Origin: a bacterium BMS3Abin14
GTDB taxonomy: Bacteria > BMS3Abin14
Length of the DNA: 38,448 bases
Assembly: GCA_002897695.1 (NCBI GenBank)
Contig: BDTG01000038.1
Location: forward strand, 1-38,448
Direction of reading: 5' to 3'
The notes beneath the pieces are model-generated. The model was not told where the DNA came from. It saw only the letters and a list, made by a program, of their open reading frames with translations, and ran no database searches. A program made the position numbers and the translations under genes. Below, piece after piece: positions 2,504-5,392 of this stretch (the first letter of the stretch is position 1; every line of letters begins with the position of its first letter).

Positions 2504-2761
2504 ATGAAAGAACAAATACTGAACGTAACATTTATAGTTAATGGGGTTGATGTAGAAATTGAAGTGACTCCGAACCAGCTTTTGAAGACCGGACGGAATA
2601 AAGTTTTAAAATTAAGCAACAATATTGGACGGCCTGCCATTGAGTGGGAAATTCACAGTGATGCCGGGCAGGCCTTGAACCCGAACAAAACCTTTGCTGC
2701 AGAAAGAGTTGGATCAAGTGACCGGTTGTTTCTTAATCTGGCTGTTGGTTTTGGGGGCTAA
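2504..2761 (+). CDS. Ubiquitin-like (beta-grasp) protein ending in Gly-Gly
   Basis: This 85-residue protein has a ubiquitin-like layout. A first hairpin (ILNVTFIVNGVDVEIEV) is followed by a helix region (PNQLLKTGRNKVLKLSNN), then GRPAIEWEIHSDAGQALNP, and a last strand RLFLNLAVGFGG that ends exactly at Gly-Gly before the stop. The pattern resembles the DUF2604-type ubiquitin-like family of bacteria; I assign this from memory of the motif, not a search. A free C-terminal Gly-Gly is what E1-like enzymes activate in ubiquitin, ThiS and MoaD proteins. No E1-like, E2-like or JAB peptidase gene is visible in the window. A strong ribosome binding site (GGGGGAG) lies 5 bases before the ATG. Confidence 0.7.
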   Translation: MKEQILNVTFIVNGVDVEIEVTPNQLLKTGRNKVLKLSNNIGRPAIEWEIHSDAGQALNPNKTFAAERVGSSDRLFLNLAVGFGG

Positions 2762-2764
2762 ATC

Positions 2765-3016
2765 ATGAACTACACACTTGAACCAACCCGCATCATTAGG
2801 TGGCGGATAGTAGAACCAAGATACCCGGCATGGCAGGAATGCGAAAAGTGCAACGGGAATGGGAAGGTGGGATTATTAAAGAAGGGTCCCAACAACCCTC
2901 AACTCAATACTGCTTCTGCTATAACGTGGGACGACATGCCCTCTATAGCGGAATGTCCTGACTGCTCCGGTACCGGCATTGGGCCAGGCACAGAGAGGTG
3001 GAAGGTGGAAGGATGA
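2765..3016 (+). CDS. Small protein with two DnaJ-like CxxCxGxG motifs
   Basis: This 83-residue protein has CEKCNGNGK near residue 27 and CPDCSGTGIG near residue 66, the classical DnaJ zinc-knuckle form, but no J domain. Its N-terminal PAWQEC and C-terminal ERWKVEG match those of the protein encoded at 1914-2414, pointing to a duplication followed by divergence. It starts four bases after the ubiquitin-like gene and its TGA overlaps the next ATG, so all three are likely co-translated. Function unknown; a zinc-binding adaptor is a reasonable guess. Confidence 0.65.
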   Translation: MNYTLEPTRIIRWRIVEPRYPAWQECEKCNGNGKVGLLKKGPNNPQLNTASAITWDDMPSIAECPDCSGTGIGPGTERWKVEG

Positions 3017-3309: not shown

Positions 3310-3678
3310 GTGATCCTGGTCGGGGATATAGTTAAGACCAATTATGCGCGCCGCAGGCCATTTAGAGTTGTGAGTATTTCTCGTGGGTGTACTTGCCCTG
3401 ATTATATCAATGAGATCAGCATGGATGATCCACCTCCGCGACCGCCCCACATACATCTAATCTGTGTGGCGGCTGAAACACCCTTAAGAAAATCCTATCA
3501 TCGGCATGAGCTATATTGGCTTTCTGGATATGCTGAAAGGGATGATGGAAGGATCACCAGTATAGACAATGATGGGGTGTTAGGCCCTGGGCACTTAAAT
3601 GCCGGTGAGCCAGATGAGCTTTTTATAATTGGTTCCACTTCCGGGGCCCAGCTGGAGCTTTTCCAGTGCACCCCTTGA
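3310..3678 (+). CDS. Conserved-looking phage-type hypothetical protein
   Basis: This 122-residue protein starts at a GTG seven bases after the previous stop. It opens with GDIVKTNYARRRPFRVVSIS, a beta-rich segment typical of small SH3/KOW-like barrels. It continues with CTCPDYINEI and PPRPPHIHLICVAAE, then a Gly/Asp-rich C-terminal part (LNAGEPDELFIIG). I recall similar hypothetical proteins in phages and islands, but no function. Cys and His residues in the middle might bind a metal. It overlaps only the non-preferred upstream start of the integrase, so it is probably the last cargo gene before the integrase. Confidence 0.6.
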   Translation: MILVGDIVKTNYARRRPFRVVSISRGCTCPDYINEISMDDPPPRPPHIHLICVAAETPLRKSYHRHELYWLSGYAERDDGRITSIDNDGVLGPGHLNAGEPDELFIIGSTSGAQLELFQCTP

Positions 3679-3737
3679 CCTCCCTTATACCCCCTGATAT
3701 TCTCCTCGTCTCCGAAACCGGAGGCTGGGAGGGGTGT

Positions 3738-4961
3738 ATGAAGGGCGGGATCTGTACCAGGGAGAAGTGTCCTCAATGCGGCGGGAAGTTCCAGGAGGTC
3801 CTCTCAAAGAGTCGCGGCAAGCCGATTATGGATATGATCTGCCCCAGATGCGGCACCACTCCAAGACGTTTTTTTCTCTTTCTTTATCTCTCAAAACAGA
3901 TTGCTCCGGACGTCGCCAAACGCAAGGTCCGGCTCTATTCCAACCAGGACGGCTACCCACTGGGCAGTTATGGTGAAGCCCACCGGCTCCTCGAGCAGAT
4001 TCGCTCCGAGATCGACGCGCGGATCTTCGATATCTCCAATTACCTGCCTTCGGAGATCGAGGGGTTCCGTGGGGCCCGGCAGTTTCCCAGGTGGCTGGCC
4101 ACCAAGCAGAACTTTTCCCCGACCCATTACCGAGAGCTGAAGCGGTATGTCCGGTTGTATTTCGGACCATATTTTGATCGCCTCGACACCCGCCGACTGA
4201 ATACCGCGCACATAGAGGACTTTCTGGAATGGATCCCGGTCCGCCAGGCCGAGTTGGGCCGGCCGGATCTCTCTCCAAAGACCAAGAAGAATATCATGGG
4301 CGCGCTGTCGTCATTCGCCAGGTGGCTGCATCGCCGTGGTACCATTGCCCAGCTCCCGCAATTCCCGGCCATCCCTGTTCCGGACCCCGTCATCCAGTGG
4401 ATAGGCAAGGAAGACCAGATGCGGATCCTGGAGGCCATCCCTCAGCAGCACAGGGCTATCTTCCGTTTTATGGCATGGCACCCGGTGAGATCCGGGGAAG
4501 CCAGGGCGCTCAAGGTAAAGGATTTTGATCCGGAGACCATCACGGTCCATGTGAGCAGGGCGTTTTCAGGAGGGGAGCTGCGGTCGCGCAAGAACCGGAG
4601 GGATTATTATCTCCCGCTGTCTGAAACGTTCGACTGGAGCCTCCTGGCCGGCAAGCTCCCGGAGGCCTGGGTATTCACCACCCCCCGGGGTCGGCCATAC
4701 TCCAGGGACTATCTGCCGAAGATATGGAGGGACTCTCTGCACCGCGCGGGGATCCCACACATCGCACTGAAGAACGCCACCCGCCACAGCGTGGCCAGTC
4801 AGGCGATAAACCGGGGTGTGAGGATCGAGGCGGTGAGCCGGGCCCTGGGACATTCCAATATCGGGGTGACCCTGGAGAGGTATGCCAAACTGGAAGTGGA
4901 GAGTCTAAGAGAGGTCCTTGACGCCAAAGTGGTCGTTTCCCTCATAAGAGAAAAAACCTGA
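3738..4961 (+). CDS. Tyrosine recombinase / integrase with N-terminal zinc ribbon
   Basis: The integrase cuts and rejoins DNA at attachment sites and most likely inserts this element into the adjacent tRNA-Glu gene. Using the ATG at 3738, which has a GGGAGGGG ribosome binding site, it is 407 residues. The N-terminal zinc ribbon is CPQCG (11-15) and CPRCG (35-39). A core-binding domain spans about 110-205 and the catalytic domain about 220-390. Catalytic residues visible are Arg251 (HPVRSGEARAL), Arg349 (NATRHS), His372 (LGHSNI) and Tyr382 (TLERYAKL). The first His of the usual HxxR box is Asn here. An upstream in-frame GTG at 3666 would overlap the preceding gene and is less likely. Confidence 0.9.
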   Translation: MKGGICTREKCPQCGGKFQEVLSKSRGKPIMDMICPRCGTTPRRFFLFLYLSKQIAPDVAKRKVRLYSNQDGYPLGSYGEAHRLLEQIRSEIDARIFDISNYLPSEIEGFRGARQFPRWLATKQNFSPTHYRELKRYVRLYFGPYFDRLDTRRLNTAHIEDFLEWIPVRQAELGRPDLSPKTKKNIMGALSSFARWLHRRGTIAQLPQFPAIPVPDPVIQWIGKEDQMRILEAIPQQHRAIFRFMAWHPVRSGEARALKVKDFDPETITVHVSRAFSGGELRSRKNRRDYYLPLSETFDWSLLAGKLPEAWVFTTPRGRPYSRDYLPKIWRDSLHRAGIPHIALKNATRHSVASQAINRGVRIEAVSRALGHSNIGVTLERYAKLEVESLREVLDAKVVVSLIREKT

Positions 4962-5020: not shown

Positions 5021-5037
5021 TGAAATAGCCGTTTTAT

Positions 5038-5112
5038 TGGTGACCCCAACGGGATTCGAACCCGTATTACCAACGTGAGAGGCTGGCGTCCTGACCGTTA
5101 GACGATGGGGCC
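5038..5112 (-). tRNA. tRNA-Glu(CTC)
   Basis: Read on the minus strand the gene begins GGCCCCATCGTCTAACGG and ends TGGGGTCA followed by an encoded CCA (5038-5040). The acceptor stem pairs with one G-T wobble. The anticodon loop is CTCTCAC on a five-pair stem, giving anticodon CTC for Glu. The T arm is GGGTTCGAATCCC. It lies 6 bases after tRNA-Gln and probably shares its transcript. Its 3' end faces the integrase and is the probable attachment site. Confidence 0.95.
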
Positions 5113-5118
5113 GGTATG

Positions 5119-5192
5119 TGGCTGGGGAGGGAGGAATCGAACCCCCACATACGGAACCAGAATCCGCTGTCCTACCCTTAGACGACTCCCCA
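5119..5192 (-). tRNA. tRNA-Gln(CTG)
   Basis: On the minus strand it starts TGGGGAGTCGTCTAAGGG and ends CTCCCCAG with an encoded CCA (5119-5121). The acceptor stem is perfect and the unusual T at position 1 is typical of tRNA-Gln. The anticodon loop TTCTGGT gives CTG. The T arm is GGGGGTTCGATTCCTCC. It is upstream of tRNA-Glu in the same direction, and its cognate synthetase glnS is also in this window. Confidence 0.95.
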
Positions 5193-5206
5193 ATATTGAC
5201 ATGGTC

Positions 5207-5233
5207 GCAAAAAGCCCATTCGTGGCTTTTTGC
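5207..5233. repeat. Dispersed hairpin repeat, copy A
   Basis: GCAAAAAGCC (5207-5216) and GGCTTTTTGC (5224-5233) form a perfect 10-pair stem with a 7-base loop, preceded by TTGACATGGTC. Related hairpins or half-copies occur at 5355-5392, 5682-5716, 13189-13213, 25923-25952 and 27121-27163, always between genes. Confidence 0.8.
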
Positions 5234-5237
5234 TCAG

Positions 5238-5268
5238 CGGAAAGCGAAAAGTGTCATTTTCACTTTCC
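5238..5268. repeat. GAAAG-type hairpin repeat, inverted copy of 25907-25937
   Basis: Read on the minus strand, GAAAGTGAAAA and TTTTCGCTTTC pair with one G-T wobble around the loop TGACAC. A nearly identical string in the opposite orientation follows the glnS stop at 25907-25937, so this is a second dispersed element. Confidence 0.75.
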
Positions 5269-5280
5269 TTGCAAATCAAC

Positions 5281-5336
5281 GACTTGCAGCGCAAGTCATC
5301 GATTTGGGCGCCCCACGCGGGGTGCGTCGATGACTT
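5281..5336. repeat. Two adjoining hairpins: 7-pair and long compound stem
   Basis: GACTTGC (5281-5287) pairs with GCAAGTC (5291-5297). Overlapping it, AAGTCATCGA (5293-5302) pairs perfectly with TCGATGACTT (5327-5336). Inside that, GCGCCCC (5308-5314) pairs with GGGGTGC (5319-5325) around the loop ACGC. The two structures share bases and would be mutually exclusive in RNA. Confidence 0.75.
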
Positions 5337-5354
5337 TCTGCGAAGTCATCAACT

Positions 5355-5392
5355 ATTGATATGGTCGCAAAAAGTCCTTCCTGGTCTTTTTT
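5355..5392. repeat. Dispersed hairpin repeat, copy B
   Basis: The lead ATTGATATGGTCGCAAAAAG matches copy A at 18 of 20 positions. The stem AAAAAGTCC/GGTCTTTTT has one T-T mismatch and a 5-base loop. Confidence 0.7.

Follow-up and report, generated by a model that had tools for sequence, protein, structure and literature searches.

The Ubiquitin-Like Protein and Its Family

Why should a ubiquitin-like (Ubl) modifier be encoded on a mobile element that carries none of the enzymes of ubiquitin-like conjugation? This question is raised by a small gene on contig BDTG01000038.1 of the bacterium BMS3Abin14 (assembly GCA_002897695.1), the whole 38,448 nucleotides of which are referred to here as the window. 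A sequence-only reading had described the product of the open reading frame (ORF) at 2504–2761 (+ strand) as an 85-residue beta-grasp-like protein that ends exactly at Gly-Gly, and had offered three explanations for it: one piece of a conjugation system continuing left of the window, a stand-alone modifier using E1-like enzymes of the host, or a decoy against a ubiquitin-like defence system.

The ATG of this ORF is preceded by a ribosome-binding-like GGGGGAG, and its product has the C-terminus AVGFGG. In a Pfam search, the protein matched the DUF2604 family (PF10790) with 49.8 bits (cut-off 25; E = 4.6e-13), one of the families that the sequence-only reading had put forward, whereas the ThiS and MoaD affiliation that it had also considered found no match, nor did the SAMP models, in Pfam and NCBIfam. 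Together with 52% identity to a phage protein that has the same Gly-Gly, the PF10790 match indicates that the ORF has not arisen by chance. The AlphaFold2 model, obtained with an alignment of 13 homologues, has a mean pLDDT of 90.7 and shows a ubiquitin fold with the main elements in the order strand-strand-helix-strand-strand, so that the proposed beta-grasp protein with a free C-terminal Gly-Gly was confirmed. The top PDB matches of the model in Foldseek are the BilA chains of 8tyx (TM 0.89) and 8tyz (TM 0.87), the titles of which are "bacterial Ubl-deubiquitinase complex" and "E1-E2-Ubl complex", respectively. Both chains were also reached from the window protein by sequence (phmmer, E = 6.6e-9 for 8tyx), and they match the family profile with E = 1e-38. 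Thus, the window protein shares with BilA (8tyx, 8tyz, and 8u38) the Pfam family, the fold (TM 0.87–0.89), and an aligned C-terminus with an invariant last Gly, although identity is about 30% and Gly-Gly here replaces the usual Ala-Gly(-Ala).

The C-terminus deserves closer attention, since the sequence-only reading expected the terminal Gly-Gly to be conserved among relatives. This holds for the last Gly, which is invariant in the family (alignment A4) and present in the window protein, but not for the preceding position, where most operon homologues have Ala and where Gly is found in both orphan proteins (those of the window and the phage), L056, and L059. One extra residue follows the conserved Gly in 36 of the 41 listed operon homologues, the other five ending at Gly, and the phage orphan has two residues beyond its Gly-Gly (GG-HN). 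Gly 82, 84, and 85 are common to both orphans despite 48% divergence.

The Bil Operon as the Usual Setting of DUF2604

A scan of genome contigs found 54 DUF2604 loci, mostly from rhizobia; the non-rhizobial ones belong to Methylobacterium, one Klebsiella-labelled contig, and one Actinomycetes bin. A PF14455 (BilB-type) sequence directly follows DUF2604 in all 54 loci, and JAB (BilC) and E2_C/ThiF (BilD) genes come next in 53 of them, the same four genes being found at plasmid loci of S. fredii NGR234, M. loti, and R. etli. In terms of Pfam, the operon contains DUF2604, Metal_CEHH, Prok-JAB, and Prok-E2_C plus ThiF. In a published domain table (PMC10952713), PF14455, PF14464, and PF14459 are listed under the ISG15-like system, and PADLOC calls BilB, BilC, and BilD for the partners at L056. 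Loci with DUF2604, PF14455, JAB, and E2_C/ThiF are the Bil (ISG15-like) antiphage operon. As stated in passages of PMC12948488 (citing Hor et al. 2024) and of PMC11364771, Bil attaches the Ubl to the central tail fibre of phages. The NGR234 operon on pNGR234a (locus L003) had been described in 2006 as row 6c by Iyer et al. (PMC1779556) and has DUF2604 as the first of four genes, whereas in the window the modifier stands alone. Only the window and the phage contig break the four-gene rule.

Some of these loci have features of their own. At L045 (Mesorhizobium), only DUF2604 and a PF14455 fragment are present and JAB and E1 genes were not found at the locus, which is probably a broken Bil operon. 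TIR-domain and caspase-like genes lie after the Bil operon in two distant hosts (L005:11610–12968 and L056:12049–13428), as annotated in L005 and as inferred from ORFs in L056, where another ORF intervenes; they could possibly be an associated effector pair. Moreover, L056 is labelled as a Klebsiella pneumoniae metagenome-assembled genome, yet its operon and flanks, with large conjugation-type ATPases, look unlike Klebsiella, and the contig may have been mis-binned.

Bil defence systems are recognized by BilB, BilC, and BilD in the same operon, and these three are missing beside the orphans, whose setting is an integrative element and a phage. A profile search of the window found no PF14455, JAB, or E1/E2 partners upstream or downstream of 2504–2761, in agreement with the lack of such neighbours remarked on before. 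The search extended to the whole host genome (2.28 Mb, estimated 100% complete), where no Bil-type partners were detected either: there is neither PF14455 nor a JAB deubiquitinase, and the sole JAB-like match is RadC and was rejected as a Bil JAB. The only ThiF-family protein of the host is a MoeB/ThiF/UbaA-like E1 on contig C10, which lacks an E2_C domain and scores against the MoeB and the SAMP-activating UbaA models, below both cut-offs. As the host has no Bil system, the window protein cannot serve a local Bil operon. A search of 11 further genomes from the phylum, and of other relatives, found no DUF2604.

The Integrative Element

The proposed location of the gene, on an element that is integrated at a tRNA and carries phage-type genes, was upheld. 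The element genes point towards a tyrosine integrase with an N-terminal zinc-ribbon region (3666–4961, +; PF00589, 58.5 bits; phrog_1 integrase), which stops beside the integration target, a tRNA-Glu(CTC) gene (5038–5112, −; ARAGORN and blastn against G001, a genome of the same genus). Homology with G001 in blastn starts at position 5033, which places the end of the element at the tRNA-Glu 3′ end. On the 5′ side of the Ubl gene lie a DUF5131 phage protein (1063–1917, +; PF07505, 238 bits; phrog_2045), which has matches in 156 phage records, and, at a distance of 1.4 kb, a counter-defence neighbour, a Lar-like restriction alleviation protein (806–1066, +; PF14354, 33 bits against a cut-off of 28.6; phrog_599 Lar-like, E = 5.5e-10).

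Several zinc-knuckle proteins are encoded nearby, and the Ubl gene is flanked by two of their genes, one upstream (1914–2414, +; PF00684, E = 0.0015, below the cut-off) and the other encoding a small DnaJ-type CxxCxG protein (2765–3016, +; PF00684, below the cut-off), the start of which is separated by 3 nt from the Ubl stop codon. The two resemble partial paralogues (blastp, E of about 3e-4), and the Ubl gene sits between them as though by insertion. The G+C content of the Ubl gene (0.43) is the lowest among the element genes (0.46–0.65 in the others), as would be expected if it had arrived separately. The idea that the zinc-knuckle neighbours are binding partners of the Ubl found no support and was rejected, since a comparison with 16 kb of the phage contig around its orphan revealed no credible relative of any neighbour in the window.

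The left end of the element (attL) was not found and lies beyond the contig: the 3′ 25-mer of the tRNA and the 30-mer of the contig end each occur once. The left flank in G001 pointed to nothing but a hipA locus on host contig C1, without a tRNA; the hipA-type toxin locus of this small contig (L079, G000:C1) is a homologue of the one that lies to the left of tRNA-Glu in G001. On the other side of the integration site, between tRNA-Gln and hsp20 genes, a repeat of ~160 bp (5191–5391) is present in many copies in the host and the family genomes searched; a query comprising the repeat (at query positions 230–430) gave 38 matches in the host genome and 56 in G001, counted over the whole query.

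A Relative in a T4-Like Phage

The closest relative of the window protein, at the 52% identity given above, is the orphan P0002 on a 155-kb phage contig from IMG/VR (L060). Close to it are genes of T4 type, which encode topoisomerase II, sliding clamp, clamp loader, and dUTPase. No ThiF, JAB, or PF14455 match was detected on this contig, which may be incomplete. An 11-kb contig from another metagenome (L061) is identical to it over 11 kb, thus only two independent orphans are known. The two group together, with 99/99 support, in a clade distinct from every operon protein, although both are on long branches. Their genes differ at 30, 32, and 63 first, second, and third codon positions, respectively (81 third positions compared), with a dN of 0.50 and a saturated dS. 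Differences lying mainly at third positions indicate that the coding sequence is kept by selection and is not a decaying leftover; the orphan Ubl is under purifying selection.

With the window protein as the only query, neither the viral nor the genome collections gave an exact-peptide match, tblastn against 50,697 phage records gave no match for either orphan, and further scans of the viral collection revealed no other orphan member, although peptide-pattern scans miss divergent members. Therefore, as far as these tools reach, this is not a widespread anti-defence gene.

Possible Function of the Orphan Modifier

We tentatively favour the view that the window gene is a free-standing, horizontally carried BilA homologue acting as a decoy for the Bil enzymes of other hosts. 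Among the three options of the sequence-only reading, the decoy is the best fit, given that a T4-like phage carries the nearest relative, likewise as an orphan, while the function itself is one that we infer. Since Bil tags the central tail fibre, a phage has reason to block it. In cells possessing a Bil system, the Ubl would work in trans: its surface and C-terminal Gly-Gly would bind and occupy BilD (E1), BilB (E2), and perhaps BilC, and the orphan would compete with host BilA, being activated or conjugated in its place. Phage tail proteins would then miss a functional tag, to the benefit of the phage or the element. The window form would need no JAB processing, whereas the BilA proteins of operons mostly have one additional residue; the phage form, ending in GG-HN, would require trimming, unlike the window protein, or act without being activated. 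Encoding by a phage or mobile element without defence partners is true of both the window element and the phage contig, and the Lar-type anti-restriction gene is a further point in favour of the decoy. Counting against it are the lack, in the present host, of any Bil system that could be inhibited, the existence of only two independent orphans, with no other member in the scans of the viral collection, and the GG-HN end of the phage protein. Viral ubiquitins such as baculovirus v-ubi, which also appear among the fold matches, are likewise virus-encoded modifiers without enzymes of their own; nevertheless, v-ubi is a eukaryotic ubiquitin and has no sequence kinship to the orphans beyond the fold.

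Other explanations have to be weighed. Many beta-grasp proteins act non-covalently, and the lack of dedicated enzymes and the two residues after Gly-Gly in the phage form would suit a non-covalent ubiquitin-like adaptor or phage protein in which Gly-Gly persists by descent but has lost its use; nonetheless, this seems unlikely, given the three Gly residues kept by the diverged orphans and the invariance of the last one in the family. It is rather less probable that the protein is a stand-alone modifier or sulfur carrier working with the E1 on contig C10, without E2 or JAB, in the manner of archaeal SAMPs. The terminal Gly-Gly, the scores of that single host E1 against the MoeB and UbaA models, albeit below the cut-offs, and the lack of any other ThiF-family protein in the host would be compatible with it; however, the protein belongs to DUF2604 and not to ThiS, MoaD, or SAMP, its phage relative has no detectable E1 on 155 kb and ends in GG-HN, and no sulfur or cofactor genes are nearby. 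ThiS/MoaD sulfur carriers and TAPI of phage lambda are also beta-grasp proteins with a C-terminal Gly, but the window protein matches none of these families and has no sulfur-transfer or tail-gene neighbours.

That the gene is what remains of a decayed Bil operon, or part of one interrupted by the contig end, is very unlikely, even though the window begins at a contig end and the left end of the element is missing. DUF2604 is the first operon gene elsewhere, thus partners would be expected directly downstream and not to the left, in a stretch that the contig covers and that lacks them. This, with neither PF14455 nor a JAB deubiquitinase in the genome (RadC being the only JAB-like match), disfavours the earlier suggestion of a system continuing left of the window; the maintained codons and the separate orphan clade shared with a phage also speak against a remnant. 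Mobile elements often carry defence genes, and complementation in trans by a free BilA would in principle be conceivable; hence, the element might supply a modifier that superinfecting phages cannot evade, to be used with the Bil enzymes of another element. With its nearest relative in a T4-like phage and a host without Bil enzymes, such a defence role is equally improbable.

Implications

Returning to the decoy, free BilA-like modifiers in phages and integrative elements could, still more tentatively, constitute a class of ubiquitin-like decoys directed against Bil. No phage inhibitor of Bil was found in the literature searched, which was covered in part. Bil, a ubiquitin-like defence of bacteria in which phage tail fibres are tagged, has been characterised recently, and the orphan modifier is a small, concrete, and easily tested candidate inhibitor of it. 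If the proposal is true, anti-Bil decoys would parallel, in prokaryotes, the interference of viruses with ISG15, and ubiquitin-like tagging would be the object of an arms race in bacteria.
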